From contig JASANZ010001948.1 of assembly GCA_030849805.1 (NCBI GenBank), positions 1 to 26,618 of the forward strand: 26,618 nt of DNA, read 5' to 3'. Origin of the DNA: Sergeia podlipaevii (taxonomy: Eukaryota; Euglenozoa; Kinetoplastea; Trypanosomatida; Trypanosomatidae). Below, one piece after another: positions 831 to 26,618 of the stretch (positions are counted from its first letter, which is position 1; every line of letters begins with the position of its first letter). Position numbers and translations under genes: made by a program. The notes under the pieces were generated by a model, which did not search any database, was not told where the DNA came from, and saw only the letters and a program-made list of their open reading frames with translations.

Positions 831-3800
831 CTAAACTCCCATCGATGCTGGTAAGCAGTACCCCGATGAATTTGCGATCACATAGGCCGTTGTGCCATCC
901 TGCAGACGTACTGGAACCTGCTGCTGCTGCTGCTGAACTGGAAATGTGTTGGTGTGTGACGAAGTGATACCCATCCCAAGACCTGTTGCTGCCATGAACG
1001 CGCCGCCTTGAGGAGCGGGAGAGACAAAAGCTGGAAGGACGTAGTTTGACTGAGAGTGCTGGAGATGCTGCTGCTGTTGATTCTGAAACTCCATCCTTGG
1101 AGACACTAAAGGCGATATCATGGCGGAAGCCAGCGTGCCTTCCGCTGTCATAGAAAGAGGTGATCCCACGCCCGTTGAGGAATGAGTTGGGGAAAGCATC
1201 GCAGCCGTGTTCATCAGCTGCGGATTCAGCCCAACGATGTGGCCACTAGCGGCACCACCAGGATGGGCAGCTAGGTGAGAAAAACTGCCGCTACTCTGGA
1301 TTACCATCATAGGCGCCATCATAGGCTGCGGCGGCGGCTGATGTGCGTGATGAATGTACTGAGGTGGCTGCTGCTGTTGCTGCAACTGCAGCTGCGACAT
1401 TTGAGCGTGATAGGAGCCAGGCGCCACACCGCTGACGCCGGGACCGGAGTACGGCGGGGGGGTCATCACACCACATTGGTACATGGGAACTCCAACTGGC
1501 TGTGACGGCAGTTGTGACGCCGGTGAAACGCACGGAGAGGTCACTGACGATATCGTCGCCTGGCGATGCGTTTGCAGCAATGAGCGGTTCAACGTCATGG
1601 GAGCAGTAACCGAAAGAACGTCCTTTTCAAAACAGTACAAGCCTTTGCGCGGTGCATCCATCGTTGCTGCTGCTGCTGAGAGTTTAGCGGCCTCATCACT
1701 CTTGGGTCCGGTACTTGTGCCCTCTGTCACTTCCCCATCTATGGCAGTGAGTTGAGATGGCGCAGAAGCACCCGACATAAGGCGCCCATCAACGAGTGCC
1801 TTGGCATCTGCTTCGCTGGCAAACGTGAAGCATGCGTGGTAGGAGTCTTTGTCTGCACTCTCACGGATGCGAAGCACATACACGCTAGTCGTACCCGCGT
1901 TAGCAGCGGGCCTCTTCTTCTTCTTCTCGTGAGAATCCTCTTCGTGGCAAACGACAGTCGCGTCCTCCTCTCTCACTTCGCTCTCGCTGCCCCGATTTTC
2001 TGGCTTCTCAATCACTTCAACCTCAGTTGCAAGTCCCTCGGCGCCACGCACCACCCCTGAATCTGTTTCCATCGTAAGGCCGTTGTCATCGCCTGATGGT
2101 GTACCAGAAGTAAGCAGACGTGCCACGCTTTCTGCGTCCTTCGTGGGCAATGAAACATCCAGCGAAACTGAATTCTTTATGTGGAAGTCTCCTGGCAGGC
2201 GGCTTGCATAAACCACCGCCGAGCCCATCATCTTGATAACTGCCTCCTCGTCTGTGTGATGCACCTCAGTCGCATTTGAGCTAGCAACTGCAGTTGCGGC
2301 AGCGGCAGCATTGGTGTTCTTGGTTATCGCATCACCAGTTGCCCCAGATAATTCTGGGTAGTCCGACGTACCGGTTTGTTGATCCATCTCCATAGCCGTC
2401 GCCGGTGTAGTGCATACCTCATCCTCGTCCATCATCGTAGTGCCACCCACAGCTGCCTTGTCCTTATCACTACTCTCCACTCCCGTAAAGCTGGTCGCTT
2501 TCTTGTCCGCCTGGGACGAAACGATACATCTGCACACGTGTCGTGCCACCTCTCTAAGAGCAGCAAACACGCTGCCGGGAAGCATCACGCGACCCTCCAT
2601 CATTTTGGATATCAACCCGGTGCTGTTCACCTGATCCCCGCCGCCATTGTAAGCGTGCTCGTCACTACCAGACATACTGAGAGAAGTTGCACTCGTACTA
2701 CTAGCCAAGTTGCGTGCGATGGACGGGGTTGCCTTGTCCTTCGCAAACCGGCACTGCAACGCGCCACCATGAAGCGCGCCAGGCACCCACAAGGTGTTCA
2801 ACTGCTCTACACAGGCAGCGGCAGACTCGTGGTTGTCATAGAGCACAAAGCCATATCCGAGAGAGTCGTTTGTGGTCGGGTGATGGGCAACCTTGGCGGA
2901 GACGATGGTGCCATAGCGGCTGCACAGCTCCGTCAGTTTTGTGGTGTTCCAGGTGAGAGGAATGTTGGTCACGTACACATTGCATGAAGATCCAGAGCCA
3001 GATCCACTCGGAGCGGCACTCTGTCGTCCCGTAGATTGCGGGTGTGAGTTGCCATTCTCCATTGATGAAGCTCCTTCCGCGACTTGGTTCACCGTCGAGA
3101 CCGGCGTAAGATACTGCTGCTGCTGGTGGTGGTGTTGCTGCTGCTGATTTAAATGCGATTGCTTGTGTAAGCTACCACTCAAGCTTTCAGCGCCGCTGCT
3201 GTTGCTGCAAGCCGTCGCCTCTCTCCCTGAGTTAGCCAAGCGACCGCTGCCCATCTCGCTACTTCTACGAGGCACATGAGCAGGTGTGTTCAGTGGGTGA
3301 TCGCTTGTGAGCCCCGCAAGATTGCCACCTGCGCTGGTAGAAAAGGCAAAAGATGAGAGTGCACGCACGGAATTACCGTTGCTCATTCCTGAATCCTCCA
3401 CTGCTGAGACAGGCCCTCCTGAAGAAGGAGCGGAAGTCGCATTGTTTAAAAGGACAACTTCCCCGTTGCTAAGACTCATAAGGAAAGCGTCCCGCTGTGA
3501 TTGCTTCGGCTGCACTAGTGACGGTGCAGGTACTTGCGGATAGCGAGCGGCGGCTGCCGCGGCGGCGGCGGTGACTTCCATGGTTGCGCTTGCGATACTC
3601 TCAAAGGAAGGCGCAGCGCGCTCGTGTGCGTAGCGGCACAACAACACCCGTGTACCTGGCGCAGCATTTTCAATTGCAGCAGTCGCAATACCATCCGGAA
3701 CTGGCATGCCAGGAATGCCAAAAGAACTTCCGACTTCTCCTGCTACCGCCGTAGGATCCTCCACCACACGCTCGTTAAGCTGTTCAATGCACATGGCGGC

Positions 3801-5249
3801 GTGTGCCTCGTGTTGAAACAGAACAAAACCATATCCAAGTGACGTATTGCTACGCTCGTGATGCATCACCTTGGCAGAGATGATAGTGCCATATGCCCCA
3901 CACACCTCTCGAAGTTTACTGGTGTTCCAGGATAAGGGAAGGTTTGTTACATACACATTCCTCCTCGCCTTACTGCCTGTAACAGCGCCTGTACCACCAC
4001 CACCGGCAGCGCCCCCACTACTGAAGCTGTTGTGCATGCTGCTATAGCCGCCGCCGCCCTGCATTTCAGAGCCCTGCGATGAAGAGAGTACATCTCGAGA
4101 TCCTAAACGGTCCAAACTTCCCGGGAGCATCATCACCGATGTGGCGTTGGGCAACTGCGGCACATACTGAAACGCCTGTTGCGAATGAGACTGTTGCTGT
4201 TGCTGATTCATAGCGGCGGCGAGCATCTGAGGGTTCGCACTGGTATCAAGAGAAGCCGCAGCAGAAGCGGCGGCGTAGTGAGGGGGGCTGTGTAGTGCAT
4301 CTAGCCTCGTGGCAGACGCAATAAACGGCTGAGGGGAGAGAACAACTGAGTCAGCGGTACCATGTTGCTGCTGCTGTGAGCTAAGTACACTTACTGGTTG
4401 CCCCGTAAGGGAGTTCACCGCATAATACATGACCGGCGGTGCTGGTGGAGTAGAGGTGAGAACACGGTGAGTAGCAGTAGCAGGATCAAACGAGTACATC
4501 ATGGGCAGTCCGCTACCATTTACCGATTGCAATGGTGGTGAGCCAAGAACTGGAACGGAAAGGGGGACTCCAGCTACCATATGGGCACCGGCGTTGCCTG
4601 TACCAGCTGCTGGATCTGCGTAAAATGTCGAAGTGATGAAACCCTCCGGTGGCGCCGAGGGCACCGAGGTGGTTGGTCCAACGCTGCACTGGAGCGTGCT
4701 GCCCTCATTACTAGGGATACTACGCATATCTATGGACTGGCCCATCTGCCCTTCGGTCCATGCCCCAGTTGTGTTCAGGATTGGCTGAACAATCGAAGAA
4801 AACAATGGGAGACTCGGCACTGCGGAAACACGTGTACTTACATGAGAAGCTGTACCGCTGCGATTGTTACTGTACTCGTACGCAGAAGCACCTCCTGTTG
4901 CTTCCGTTGCAACTCCTCCTCCTCCTTCTGCTGCTGCTGCTGCCGCTGGGGCCGTGTGAAACATCTGAAATACATCTCGATTGCCTATTGCATCTCCTGC
5001 ATCTCCTGTATCCGCAAATGCGCCGACTGGTGCCGCTACGGCGGCATCGTGTTGTTGTTGTTGTTGTTGTTGTTGTCGCTGTGGCTGATGCTGCTGCTGC
5101 TGTTTCTGGAGTAAACTGTCATTCAAGTGCAAGTTGACCGCGCTGTCATGCGTATCGTACATCAACCAGGGGCCTTCTCCTGAATTATTGCGGACGATTT
5201 GATCTTCGTGAGGCGCGGAATACTCAGTGCTTAACGCCTTGTCCGCCAT
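831..5249 (-). CDS. Gln-rich RNA-binding protein with two RRM domains
   Basis: The protein has 1472 residues from the ATG at 5249. The open frame extends 12 codons further upstream, but only through a TA microsatellite to a TTG. The first ATG sits in a CCATGG context, and no other ATG lies between it and the candidate splice acceptor near 5443. RRM1 is at about residues 430-545, with RNP2-like VYVTNL and RNP1-like LGYGFVLF and a long insert before its last strand. RRM2 is at about 756-839 and is closely similar to RRM1. A degenerate third RRM-like segment (VYVLRI ... HACFTF) lies near 1119-1159. The rest is low complexity: several Gln tracts, Ser/Gly/Ala-rich linkers and an acidic stretch. 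Known RRM proteins of this kind bind single-stranded RNA; in trypanosomatids they control mRNA stability and translation. That role is inferred and the RNA target is unknown. The stop is TAG. I recognise no named orthologue. Confidence 0.93.
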   Translation of the reverse strand: MADKALSTEYSAPHEDQIVRNNSGEGPWLMYDTHDSAVNLHLNDSLLQKQQQQHQPQRQQQQQQQQHDAAVAAPVGAFADTGDAGDAIGNRDVFQMFHTAPAAAAAAEGGGGVATEATGGASAYEYSNNRSGTASHVSTRVSAVPSLPLFSSIVQPILNTTGAWTEGQMGQSIDMRSIPSNEGSTLQCSVGPTTSVPSAPPEGFITSTFYADPAAGTGNAGAHMVAGVPLSVPVLGSPPLQSVNGSGLPMMYSFDPATATHRVLTSTPPAPPVMYYAVNSLTGQPVSVLSSQQQQHGTADSVVLSPQPFIASATRLDALHSPPHYAAASAAASLDTSANPQMLAAAMNQQQQQSHSQQAFQYVPQLPNATSVMMLPGSLDRLGSRDVLSSSQGSEMQGGGGYSSMHNSFSSGGAAGGGGTGAVTGSKARRNVYVTNLPLSWNTSKLREVCGAYGTIISAKVMHHERSNTSLGYGFVLFQHEAHAAMCIEQLNERVVEDPTAVAGEVGSSFGIPGMPVPDGIATAAIENAAPGTRVLLCRYAHERAAPSFESIASATMEVTAAAAAAAARYPQVPAPSLVQPKQSQRDAFLMSLSNGEVVLLNNATSAPSSGGPVSAVEDSGMSNGNSVRALSSFAFSTSAGGNLAGLTSDHPLNTPAHVPRRSSEMGSGRLANSGREATACSNSSGAESLSGSLHKQSHLNQQQQHHHQQQQYLTPVSTVNQVAEGASSMENGNSHPQSTGRQSAAPSGSGSGSSCNVYVTNIPLTWNTTKLTELCSRYGTIVSAKVAHHPTTNDSLGYGFVLYDNHESAAACVEQLNTLWVPGALHGGALQCRFAKDKATPSIARNLASSTSATSLSMSGSDEHAYNGGGDQVNSTGLISKMMEGRVMLPGSVFAALREVARHVCRCIVSSQADKKATSFTGVESSDKDKAAVGGTTMMDEDEVCTTPATAMEMDQQTGTSDYPELSGATGDAITKNTNAAAAATAVASSNATEVHHTDEEAVIKMMGSAVVYASRLPGDFHIKNSVSLDVSLPTKDAESVARLLTSGTPSGDDNGLTMETDSGVVRGAEGLATEVEVIEKPENRGSESEVREEDATVVCHEEDSHEKKKKRPAANAGTTSVYVLRIRESADKDSYHACFTFASEADAKALVDGRLMSGASAPSQLTAIDGEVTEGTSTGPKSDEAAKLSAAAATMDAPRKGLYCFEKDVLSVTAPMTLNRSLLQTHRQATISSVTSPCVSPASQLPSQPVGVPMYQCGVMTPPPYSGPGVSGVAPGSYHAQMSQLQLQQQQQPPQYIHHAHQPPPQPMMAPMMVIQSSGSFSHLAAHPGGAASGHIVGLNPQLMNTAAMLSPTHSSTGVGSPLSMTAEGTLASAMISPLVSPRMEFQNQQQQHLQHSQSNYVLPAFVSPAPQGGAFMAATGLGMGITSSHTNTFPVQQQQQQVPVRLQDGTTAYVIANSSGYCLPASMGV

Positions 5250-17911: not shown

Positions 17912-19900
17912 TCAGCATCGCATGAGTTCATATTCTATGCAGTCATAGTAGGCGCCGGTTAAGATGCAAAGTGCACTCAACACCCCACACAGGTGCCAAA
18001 TGTTGTGACTATTGCCAATGTAATCGAGCTCAGCACCAGAGATGACGTACGTGGTGAAGAGTTGGCACAAGGATACACGATCGCGGAGCTCATGAAAAGA
18101 CGCCTTAAGGGACTGCAGGGAAAGAGGAAAACGATTACTGAGAAAGATAGAGGAGTCCTCCTCTCCCCCACGAGCTCCTCTCCGCTGCTGCTGCCGCTGC
18201 TGATGATGATAAACAGAACCTTGTGTTTTGCGCCTCCGATCCTGTCCGCCACCATGCCTGGGGGCAGTGATGTCCTCCTCCTCCTCCTTGTCACTTCCAT
18301 ACTCCTTTTCATGACACAGCCGCTCCATGTTTAGTCGATGCTGACGACGCAGTGCAAAGTCGCTTGCTTGCTGCTCCATGTGTCGCACAATCCGTTCCGG
18401 CACACGAGTCGCATTGATGGCCCCGCCGCCCATAAGAAAAACGTAAGACATGCCATAGTAGAAGGAAGCTTGAGTAAAGCCGTGTGGAGCACGCGACTTG
18501 GGAAGGACTATCACCACGTAGCATACAAAGTGTAAGAGACAGTGAACACCGACAATAGCAGCGCGCTGTTGCACTGATACAGGACCCGCGCTGCCTCCTG
18601 CGCTTTCCACCCCATCAGGCTGTTGTGCATGGCGGTGATGCGTGTGAAAAGTGCTTGATGGTGTGGCAGCTCCAGCCCGACGCCACTTACCATAGCGGCA
18701 CCGCCCACGCCAGAGCAGCACCGCAAGAACATTTTCACTCTGCGGATGCGGAGCCTCCATTGGTGCCGCTCGTATGAACTCCACACAAAGACAGACCCCT
18801 TCTACCATGCAGGCAAGCACCGTGAGCACCACACGACCGCAGTCACGAAGCAGCGCCTCCTGTATGGGTGCGATGAGAATCGCATAACCGGTAAAGAACG
18901 TCGATGCCACCATCACTACTGCCGCAGCTTTCATCACCAAGGGCGATGTGCACGGGTTGCCTCGAACGAAGTAGGCGTAGGCACTACCAGTGATAGAAGT
19001 CAACACACCAGAGACATCACACTGGAGCAGCTGCTGATACCCGCGGCGGGTACGACAGCACGGCATGAAAAGATGATAAACAATGGAGAGAAGGAAGGTG
19101 GCGAGAAAGCTTATGCAGATCGGCACCACCACTGAAGCCGGGTCAAAATCATCGTAGGAAGCAAGAGCAGCACCAGAAGGCAATGAACCTCCGCGTAGGC
19201 CACGTCGGGTAAGCAGAGGAGCGGTGGCGGCTGCGCCGGTGCCAACAGGGTCTACAGAGACAGTAGGAGCCACACCGGCAGCTGAAGCACCCCTAGTTCT
19301 CCAGTAGTCTTCATCATAGGCAGCCTCAGAGCCCCACGACCCTCCGCCCTGTTGTTGATGTTGGTAGCGGTTGTGTTTGTCTTCTCCAGCAAGAAAGGCG
19401 GCACTGTCACCGCTCTGAAAGGCAGCACTGGTGGTGCCAAGCGCAGTCCTAAAAAACTGAGGCACGGGCGGGTAAAATATAAAATACAGCAACAATAAGC
19501 AAGGCAACAAGTGGGAAAAGACGTTAAATGTTTCATTGTGTGTGTACATGAAGAGGGAACCGATTGCCTCGCGTGGAGTCAGCGTGGTTGGTCGGTACCC
19601 TCCCTGAATGTACTTGTTATAGCGGAGCCACATGGGCACCTCATGGATGGATACAACCGACTTGCGCCAGCTACGGACCTCATCCAGCAGGCCCCACGGA
19701 GCGCGATCAGATCTTTCATTCTCTTCGTTATCATCGCCCTCCATCCGTCGCGCGGGAGAACGAGTGATATGAGATGGAATGCCAGGCACTGACTGAAGCG
19801 GTCCAGGCTCTGCTACTGTGTGTAGTCGTCGATTGAAAGTACCGTCAGCAGCTCGTCCACGCACTGGTGAGCTACGTGCATTCCGTACCTTTGGAGGCAT
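17912..19900 (-). CDS. PAQR family seven-helix membrane protein (adiponectin receptor/haemolysin III superfamily)
   Basis: The protein has 662 residues. Superfamily hallmarks are present in order. HNETFNVFSHLL at about 121-132 leads into helix 1. S272, H276 and D295 form the second motif (SIVYH ... CDVSG). A further set of hydrophobic helices follows, then ATRVPER at about 498-504, which matches the conserved RIPER segment before the last helix. H632 and H636 (SHNIWH) are the final pair. In the family the three histidines bind zinc, and Ser and Asp complete a site linked to ceramidase-like hydrolysis of lipids. All five positions are kept, so it is probably catalytically competent, although the substrate is unknown. 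Two features are unusual: a polar insert of about 110 residues (about 145-255) between helices 1 and 2, and an insert of about 125 residues (505-630) before the last helix, with Gln, Glu and Arg runs. The N-terminal 65 residues are polar. The stop is TGA. Confidence 0.9.
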   Translation of the reverse strand: MPPKVRNARSSPVRGRAADGTFNRRLHTVAEPGPLQSVPGIPSHITRSPARRMEGDDNEENERSDRAPWGLLDEVRSWRKSVVSIHEVPMWLRYNKYIQGGYRPTTLTPREAIGSLFMYTHNETFNVFSHLLPCLLLLYFIFYPPVPQFFRTALGTTSAAFQSGDSAAFLAGEDKHNRYQHQQQGGGSWGSEAAYDEDYWRTRGASAAGVAPTVSVDPVGTGAAATAPLLTRRGLRGGSLPSGAALASYDDFDPASVVVPICISFLATFLLSIVYHLFMPCCRTRRGYQQLLQCDVSGVLTSITGSAYAYFVRGNPCTSPLVMKAAAVVMVASTFFTGYAILIAPIQEALLRDCGRVVLTVLACMVEGVCLCVEFIRAAPMEAPHPQSENVLAVLLWRGRCRYGKWRRAGAATPSSTFHTHHRHAQQPDGVESAGGSAGPVSVQQRAAIVGVHCLLHFVCYVVIVLPKSRAPHGFTQASFYYGMSYVFLMGGGAINATRVPERIVRHMEQQASDFALRRQHRLNMERLCHEKEYGSDKEEEEDITAPRHGGGQDRRRKTQGSVYHHQQRQQQRRGARGGEEDSSIFLSNRFPLSLQSLKASFHELRDRVSLCQLFTTYVISGAELDYIGNSHNIWHLCGVLSALCILTGAYYDCIEYELMRC

Positions 19901-24971: not shown

Positions 24972-24996
24972 TGTCTTTCCCCCNTGTCTTTCCCCC
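24972..24996. other. Undetermined base flanked by identical 12-mers
   Basis: The single N at 24984 lies between two identical copies of TGTCTTTCCCCC (24972-24983 and 24985-24996). The pattern suggests two contig or read ends that overlap and were joined without merging, next to a hard-to-sequence C run. Confidence 0.6.
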
Positions 24997-25077: not shown

Positions 25078-26115
25078 TTACAGTTTGGCGTCCTTCGTAA
25101 GTTGAGCAATCATCTGGAGACTCACATTTGCGCCACTTAGAACAATGCCAACCTTCTTGTACTTCTCCAGCTCTGGCGGCATGGAAAGCACGGCTGCGAC
25201 AGCCACGGCGGACTTCTCATCAATAACGAGCTTGCACCGCTCATAGACGTAACGGAGCGCGCGGTTGATGTCCTCTTCATTCACCTGAACGAGATTGTCT
25301 ACGTACTTGTTCACGTATGGGCGGACAGTAGCGGGGATCGTAGTGAGAAGTCGATCTGCCACGCCGCTATTAGAAGATCCCTCTGGCACCTTCTTGGCCT
25401 TCTCTTTGCCACCGCACTTGAACTCCGCGTAGTGGGTCCGCTTGCGCAAAGGCTCCGCCGCCACCACCGCTACGTTAGCCTTCATCCCCTTGACAGCAAT
25501 GGCCACAGCAGATATGAGAGCACCTCCGCCAACGGGGCACACAATGCAATCAAGATTGCAATCCGTCTGAAGCATCAGTTCTATCCCTATCGTGCCGTAG
25601 CCAATCATGACCGTCTCATCTTCGTAAGGCGGCACATAAATGGCGTGGTCGTTCTTGCCGGAGTTGTACTCCTTCACCAGCTCCTCCGTGGCCTGGCAGC
25701 GTGCTTCCAGCGTCGGAGCACACGCTACATAAGTACCCTTGTAGTGCTTGATGCTACGCTTGAGCGTCTCTGAGGAGTCATCCGGGAGAGCCACATGGCA
25801 CGTGCTTTGAAACATCGTCGCCGCGCACGCAAGGGCGGGTCCACTGTTGCCTGTGCTGTACGTTACGAAGTGGTTGACCTCAAGGTCCCTCTCCTTGGTG
25901 CGCATGACCTTGTACATCATGCCTCGGAAATGATAGCTGCCGGTGCGCTGGAGGCTCTCGCATTTGAGCACGACACGCTCGTGGCCTGTCTTTCCCTGAA
26001 GCGCCATGCTCTCGATCACGGGAGTTTCATAAGCGTAGCTCTTGATGGCACGATGCGCCGCCAGCATCTGATGAACAGACGGCATTTCTTTTTTTCTTAC
26101 CTGTTCAGTGAACAT
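25078..26115 (-). CDS. Serine racemase/threonine dehydratase-like PLP-fold protein lacking the catalytic Lys
   Basis: The protein has 345 residues, typical length for eukaryotic serine racemase. The fold-type II layout is clear: LKCESLQRTGSYHFRG (50-65), the substrate loop STGNSGPALA (87-96), PPYEDETVMIGYGTIGIEL (162-180), the glycine loop PVGGGAL (194-200), Glu221 at the usual metal position, and LSGANV (326-331). In active relatives the segment reads SFKxRG and its Lys forms the Schiff base with pyridoxal phosphate. Here that position is His62 (codon CAT at 25932-25930). The fourth Gly of the phosphate loop is Ala199 and SGGN has become SGAN. Family members racemise or dehydrate Ser/Thr; this one is predicted to be impaired or altered. 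It ends in AKL, a type 1 peroxisomal/glycosomal signal. The start may be Met1 or Met11 (26085). Downstream the TAA stop sits directly against an A run on the coding strand. Confidence 0.92.
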   Translation of the reverse strand: MFTEQVRKKEMPSVHQMLAAHRAIKSYAYETPVIESMALQGKTGHERVVLKCESLQRTGSYHFRGMMYKVMRTKERDLEVNHFVTYSTGNSGPALACAATMFQSTCHVALPDDSSETLKRSIKHYKGTYVACAPTLEARCQATEELVKEYNSGKNDHAIYVPPYEDETVMIGYGTIGIELMLQTDCNLDCIVCPVGGGALISAVAIAVKGMKANVAVVAAEPLRKRTHYAEFKCGGKEKAKKVPEGSSNSGVADRLLTTIPATVRPYVNKYVDNLVQVNEEDINRALRYVYERCKLVIDEKSAVAVAAVLSMPPELEKYKKVGIVLSGANVSLQMIAQLTKDAKL

Positions 26116-26483: not shown

Positions 26484-26618
26484 AAGAGAAAAGATTTTGG
26501 GAGGAACATATAAGATTAGTTCAGCGCATGAATTATAAAACAGAATGCAATACAGAGCGAGAGAGAGCATCTCTCATTTCTTTTTTATTCATTCATGACT
26601 TTCAAATCGCCCCCCCCC

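Follow-up and report, generated by a model that had tools for sequence, protein, structure and literature searches.

What kind of protein remains when a fold-type II enzyme dependent on pyridoxal 5′-phosphate (PLP) loses the lysine that forms its Schiff base? The question is raised by a serine racemase/threonine dehydratase-like gene in a 26,618-nucleotide stretch of Sergeia podlipaevii DNA (assembly GCA_030849805.1, contig JASANZ010001948.1), referred to here as the window, which encodes histidine at that position. With moderate confidence, we read its product from sequence comparison as an ancient pseudoenzyme with a repurposed ligand pocket, retained across much of the Trypanosomatidae. A sequence-only reading of the window had offered a conserved pseudoenzyme, an unusual PLP chemistry or a new ligand-binding protein as the main options, and this set is upheld, with no final choice among its members, because a single loss of the lysine is kept in 28 aligned rows, the frame is open, residues are held and the structural model is confidently fold-type II. 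The gene and its altered motif are positioned as follows.

26115..25078, minus strand: coding sequence of the lysine-less serine racemase/threonine dehydratase-like protein, 345 residues, stop codon included in the coordinates
25921..25950, minus strand: QRTGSYHFRG, the motif that holds the Schiff-base lysine in other members, reading CAGCGCACCGGCAGCTATCATTTCCGAGGC
25930..25932, minus strand: His62 (CAT) at the Schiff-base lysine position (K56 of human serine racemase), placed by alignments with 6lut and human serine racemase

The window protein belongs to the fold-type II PLP proteins by both profile and predicted fold. The PF00291 (PALP) match spans its full length with 195 bits against a cut-off of 35, and the predicted structure is a confident fold-type II model with the fold intact. 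Its best solved relative is the Dictyostelium serine racemase 6lut (1.5e-54), with mammalian serine racemases next. The best NCBIfam model is that of the beta-hydroxyaspartate dehydratase BhcB (NF045641), but the score of 198.8 bits is far below the curated 550-bit cut-off. Within the motif, the minus strand from 25921 to 25950 translates as the sequence-only reading had it, and the CAT codon is two base changes from both lysine codons, in line with the minimum of two claimed there; the lysine of the family pattern [SA]-F-K-x-R-G is replaced by His62. Scored with a codon reference built from five further PALP genes in this genome (self-scores 0.27–0.58), the frame reaches 0.30 bits per codon and the two off-frame readings −0.78 and −0.60; GC3 is 0.67. 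Because most aligned orthologues begin at or near the second methionine, M11 (26085), the true start may lie there, in which case the protein would be ten residues shorter.

The loss of the lysine is shared by a clade. A protein search with the window protein gave 254 matches, of which the best 120 were listed, and the alignment comprised 172 rows: the window protein together with P0001–P0059 and P0241–P0352 (171 of the 352 fetched proteins, P0060–P0240 being left out). In this alignment the Schiff-base lysine is absent from all 28 rows of the clade (22 His, 4 Asn, 1 Thr and 1 Cys) and present in all 144 rows outside it. On a maximum-likelihood tree built from 74 rows of the 172, with the motif columns excluded and midpoint rooting for drawing, the lysine-less rows form one side of a single branch (support 100/100, length 0.62), and the lysine changes once. 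The basal split of the clade separates a Trypanosoma branch, with Asn or Thr at the position, from the remaining rows, where His occupies 22 of 23 and Cys the other. The sequence-only reading had asked whether His is fixed in a clade: the loss of lysine is clade-wide, with His in 22 rows and Asn, Thr or Cys in the other six. Asn may have been the first replacement, since single base changes lead most directly from Lys through Asn to His or Thr.

Names are attached to 11 of the 27 fetched clade members (Novymonas, two Leptomonas, Porcisia, Leishmania tarentolae, two Phytomonas, and Trypanosoma grayi, conorhini, cruzi and vivax), while the other 16, including P0026 in the Trypanosoma branch, are trypanosomatid by tree position only; Trypanosoma brucei is not among the named rows of the best 120 of 254 matches. 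One clade member, P0013, reads TGNCCFRG, with Cys both at the lysine position and in place of the stacking aromatic. Seven lysine-bearing rows lie close to the clade in the tree (P0243, P0028, P0241, P0242, P0244, P0245 and P0248); they may come from free-living kinetoplastids, in which case they would put a date on the loss.

The change at residue 62 is accompanied by others in and around the pocket, listed here with human serine racemase numbering transferred by counting along its alignment with the window protein.

25933..25935, minus strand: Tyr61 at the position of the ring-stacking Phe (human F55); Tyr in 27 of 28 clade rows, Phe in 143 of 144 others
25843..25857, minus strand: STGNS (87–91), the SSGNH loop; Asn90 is kept and the human H87 position is Ser
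25699..25701, minus strand: Arg139 (human R135); all 23 clade rows outside the Trypanosoma branch have it, as do 2 of the 5 inside
25516..25530, minus strand: GGGAL (196–200), the phosphate-binding glycine loop, with Ala as the fourth Gly
25453..25455, minus strand: Glu221 (human metal ligand E210); kept in the window, lost in 10 of 28 clade rows
25435..25437, minus strand: Thr227 at the position of the second metal ligand (human D216)
25351..25359, minus strand: ADR (253–255), remnant of the ADG motif (human D238–G239)
25219..25221, minus strand: Asp299 (human E283); Asp in 28 of 28 clade rows, Glu in 144 of 144 others
25126..25137, minus strand: SGAN (327–330), that is SGGN with Ala329; Ala329 occurs in no other row of the 28-row clade

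The glycine loop reads PVGGGAL and the C-terminal motif SGAN, as described earlier for A199 and A329. The accompanying claim that the rest of the protein is kept is borne out for Glu221 in the window, the open frame and the fold in the model; it does not extend to the metal Asp, Phe61 or the equivalents of human His87, Gln89, Lys114, Asp238, Gly239 and Glu283, which are lost in the window or in most clade rows. Of the Glu and Asp that make up the serine racemase metal site, the window protein has Glu221 and carries Thr227 instead of Asp. Of the 28 rows, 3 still have the equivalent of human His87, 1 that of Gln89, none that of Lys114, 2 that of Asp238, 10 that of Gly239 and 14 that of the metal ligand Asp216. 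No row retains the Gln of the GQGT motif, and 6 retain the fourth glycine of the loop (Gly199 position), which is changed in 22. The equivalents of Arg58, Gly187, Leu189, Lys279, Gly314 and Asn316 are kept in all 28 and that of Asn86 in 27, while outside the Trypanosoma branch Asn90 and Arg139 are found in all 23 rows, GGG in 22 and Ser327 in 21. GGG is broken in all five rows of the Trypanosoma branch (P0023–P0027), where positions 196–198 read VGG, SEG, MGG, ACG and SGG alongside Asn or Thr at the lysine position, and the PLP phosphate site looks lost in these proteins.

Conservation of the pocket was compared using 22 columns hand-picked from human serine racemase and random column sets drawn from columns 14–231 and 266–340. 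In the 23 clade rows outside the Trypanosoma branch, mean pocket entropy is 0.45 against 1.15 elsewhere, and 1 of 10,000 random sets is as low; the corresponding values are 0.04 and 1.16 for the 13 lysine-bearing near relatives, and 0.28 and 1.55 for all 144 lysine-bearing rows. In the five rows of the Trypanosoma branch the pocket is not more conserved than the remainder. The pocket is therefore held in the His rows, judged by these alignment columns, though less tightly than in lysine-bearing relatives. Over a tree length of 7.51 the mean number of changes per column is 4.46; His62 and Tyr61 changed once each, Asn90, Arg139, Gly197, Gly198 and Asp299 not at all, and positions 254 and 255 (ADG), 227 (metal) and 93 ten or eleven times each. 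In our reading, the pocket would have been rebuilt and then held, while parts that are catalytic in serine racemase were let go.

The sequence-only reading had named takeover of the Schiff-base position by another lysine as the finding that would overturn it. Four columns are enriched for lysine in the clade: 22 (26 of 28 clade rows against 13 of 144 others), 74 (27 against 5), 212 (28 against 34) and 233 (21 against 21). In the predicted structure, column 22, which is Arg in the window, lies in the N-terminal helix, column 74 lies 12 residues along the helix that starts at His62, and column 212 is positioned just beyond the helix that follows the glycine loop. On the basis of these helix positions in the model's secondary structure, the three are predicted to be too far from the pocket to supply a replacement. 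Column 233, with Lys in only 21 of the 28 rows, falls in a loop with pLDDT of about 50–70 that is not placeable in the model; the distance argument covers the other three columns.

The retained-pseudoenzyme reading rests on a catalytic residue that is lost, a loss shared by descent and a sequence that is under constraint at the protein level. We propose that in a fold-type II serine racemase/threonine (or hydroxyaspartate) dehydratase the Schiff-base lysine was lost once, before the sampled lineages diverged, plausibly through a one-base change to Asn, which then gave way to His outside Trypanosoma or to Thr in T. cruzi; the changes of Phe61 to Tyr and Glu299 to Asp would, by their distribution, fall on the same stem. 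The resulting protein would form no internal aldimine and would not support ordinary PLP turnover. Outside Trypanosoma it would most likely bind a small phosphate- and carboxylate-bearing ligand non-covalently, with PLP, pyridoxamine 5′-phosphate (PMP), a pyridoxyl-amino acid or an amino acid as candidates, through contacts with Asn90, the GGG loop, Arg139, Ser327 and His62. Such a protein might have a sensing, carrying or regulatory role, and its output would be the movement of the small domain between open and closed states. In Trypanosoma the pocket would have drifted further, and cofactor binding is probably gone.

Several observations weigh against this proposal. His62 is not exceptional in its constancy, since 100 of 318 columns changed at most once, and its presence in 22 of 23 rows outside Trypanosoma also fits a catalytic base. 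The pocket test for the Trypanosoma branch (entropy 0.70 against 0.64 elsewhere; 6581 of 10,000 random sets as low) uses five rows and hand-chosen columns, of which column 255 is outside the random-draw range. Constraint may be weaker in the window lineage, because the window has the most private changes of any clade row, 13 at 96 conserved columns, the next rows having 12, 10 and 9. Finally, dehydratase activity has been reported, in the sections covered of PMC11934319, for the recombinant product of TcCLB.506825.70, which is probably the T. cruzi member of the clade.

That report bears on the possibility that the clade consists of working enzymes in which His (or Asn or Thr) assumes the role of the lysine, with PLP or PMP bound non-covalently, the His acting in acid-base catalysis as in ColD, or a slow direct aldimine route. 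We consider this unlikely. In its favour, besides the near-constant His, Asn90, Arg139, GGG and Ser327 outside Trypanosoma, a catalytic His replaces the aminotransferase lysine in ColD, E1 and SpnQ (passages of PMC8987622). According to the sections covered of PMC11934319 (2025), Ser/Thr dehydratase activity was found in T. cruzi extracts, TcCLB.506825.70 was picked by a genome search for a putative gene and cloned, and the recombinant protein was active. We take this gene to be probably the clade member P0025, because of its name, putative serine-threonine dehydratase, and the apparent lack of the lysine-bearing type in Trypanosoma. P0025, a protein of 343 residues, has SYT in the motif, PAMGGAL as its glycine loop and Thr for the Ser that binds N1. 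Thr at the lysine position, Met in the loop and the altered N1 contact make it an unlikely catalyst. Across the clade, drift or outright loss affects the Re-face Ser84, the metal site, the ADG motif and the position of the invariant Lys118, which also argues against catalysis. The assayed protein came from E. coli by a single Ni-affinity step with PLP added; the sections covered of PMC11934319 make no mention of a site mutant or a deaminase-free host, and lysine is nowhere named in its main text. If P0025 and TcCLB.506825.70 are the same, then either the activity came from another source or the lysine is dispensable. E. coli itself has several serine deaminases. Were His to do the work of the PLP lysine, the trypanosomatid serine/threonine dehydratase would be a real enzyme (or a PMP/PLP carrier) without an internal aldimine, and the T. 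cruzi activity would be its first measurement, in a member with Thr at the site; we think this rather improbable.

A third possibility is that the protein is a dead activator subunit, or prozyme, that pairs with a lysine-bearing dehydratase. It has precedents: in trypanosomatids, AdoMetDC and deoxyhypusine synthase, which belong to a single pathway, pair with dead paralogues (PMC3663545, PMC6221367 and PMC5201418), and a dead tryptophan synthase beta paralogue activates TSA in eudicots (passages of PMC12727527). Candidate partners are also present, as a PF00291 profile search of the genome returned six loci, two of which, L001 and L002, lie close together on contig C477 (about 30.0–33.6 kb) and read FRRTGAYKERG with the lysine in place. 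Their best NCBIfam model is threonine ammonia-lyase TIGR01127 (372.6 and 355.5 bits, below the cut-off of 378.75); each has about 100 residues beyond the PALP match with no Pfam domain, and the ACT domain that might be expected was not found by Pfam at E 0.01. L003 is best matched by cystathionine beta-synthase (478.1 bits, below the cut-off of 510), whereas the best match of L004 is cysteine synthase (409 bits, above 351) and that of L006 threonine synthase (178 bits, above 167). The genome has a duplication of the lysine-bearing type beside a single lysine-less gene. A genome search with the window protein recovered only itself and L001 and L002, which at 29–30% identity are paralogues of another subfamily; the search for a second copy with Lys suggested by the sequence-only reading therefore finds two lysine-bearing threonine ammonia-lyase-like genes, neither of them a working copy of the lysine-less one.

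This same low identity counts against the activator-subunit explanation, as does the phylogenetic range of the presumed partner. Among the best 120 of 7958 matches, the relatives of L001 include Novymonas, Leptomonas, Porcisia, two Leishmania, Herpetomonas, Strigomonas, Angomonas and Bodo, labelled in databases as serine racemase, threonine ammonia-lyase or hypothetical protein, with no named Trypanosoma row, and passages of PMC3846528 state that neither Leishmania nor Trypanosoma has EC 4.3.1.19 genes. An obligate partner thus seems to be missing from Trypanosoma, which has the lysine-less protein, and the explanation is weakened to the point that we regard it as doubtful. Contrary to the statement in PMC3846528, two Leishmania proteins, P0131 (L. 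martiniquensis) and P0132 (L. enriettii), are lysine-bearing threonine ammonia-lyase-like rows.

A sequencing error or decaying copy private to this genome is highly improbable, even though the window row ends in the clade's longest terminal branch (0.78) and leads in private changes, a count that P0026 nearly equals (12). The lysine is missing from all 27 other clade rows, taken from other assemblies, and the open frame, clear coding bias, intact fold in the model and held residues at the changed site speak against a pseudogene, as the sequence-only reading had maintained.

The retained-pseudoenzyme reading matters for annotation, since several clade proteins are recorded in databases as serine-threonine dehydratase, threonine ammonia-lyase or serine racemase. 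Labels of this kind may underlie the metabolic maps drawn for Trypanosoma and Leishmania. The residue that defines the chemistry is present in none of the 28 rows. Either the published T. cruzi enzyme assignment needs re-examination or a PLP-fold enzyme works without its lysine. The clade also offers an old pseudoenzyme candidate in organisms known to use dead paralogues as regulators. Lysine-less PLP-fold proteins and dead paralogues are already known; a lysine-less serine racemase/threonine dehydratase clade across trypanosomatids was not found in the open-licence literature searched, nor was any mention of its missing lysine found in the titles, abstracts and passages of that literature. 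Expression is hinted at by a 37-kDa threonine ammonia-lyase in Leishmania vesicles (a passage of PMC8851419), which fits the clade by name and size only, and a passage of PMC7184772 on gene copy number in braziliensis may concern a clade member. The horizontal-transfer case in PMC5169069 was set aside, as the trypanosomatid family in the part covered is Ala_racemase_N, another family.

Elsewhere in the window, the minus strand at 17915–19900 encodes a protein of which residues 445–646 of 662 partially match HlyIII (PF03006, 62.7 bits; profile positions 133–223 of 224), the long N-terminal part being without a match. At 831–5246 the same strand encodes a large protein that looks Q-rich by eye and contains two RRM stretches (PF00076, 96.6 bits). 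Outside the lysine-less gene, position 24984 is a single N beside a short repeated C-rich stretch, and a C run at 26610–26618 ends the contig about 500 bases upstream of the gene start; both are minor weak points of the assembly.

Compared with known systems, the window protein is closest to serine racemase (human 3l6b, Dictyostelium 6lut), which with the aspartate racemase 5ybw represents fold-type II PLP enzymes whose Schiff-base lysine it does not have. Relative to serine racemase, Phe55 is replaced by Tyr and Glu283 by Asp in the window and the clade, and the equivalents of S84, H87, Q89, K114, D216 and G239 differ in the window, while across the clade they have changed or are drifting. 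Among BhcB, threo-3-hydroxyaspartate ammonia-lyase and TdcB-type threonine dehydratases, BhcB gives the best NCBIfam model, but the score is far below its cut-off and the catalytic lysine is absent. The trypanosomatid threonine ammonia-lyase-like proteins (L001 and L002, in the same genome, and P0124 and P0134–P0141) share the Pfam family and, unlike the lysine-less protein, L001 and L002 keep GAYKERG and extend beyond the PALP match. The AdoMetDC prozyme and DHSp are catalytically dead paralogues from the same family of organisms; they are known heteromeric activators, whereas a candidate partner of the lysine-less protein seems to be missing in Trypanosoma. The TSB-like protein of eudicots is of fold type II. 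It too is a non-catalytic member of a PLP family retained for another role (passages of PMC12727527). Its activity was lost through two other residues, and its partner TSA is known. The sugar 3-dehydratases ColD, E1 and SpnQ differ from the window protein in being PMP-dependent sugar enzymes related to aminotransferases, of fold type I. They likewise have His in place of the PLP lysine (passages of PMC8987622).
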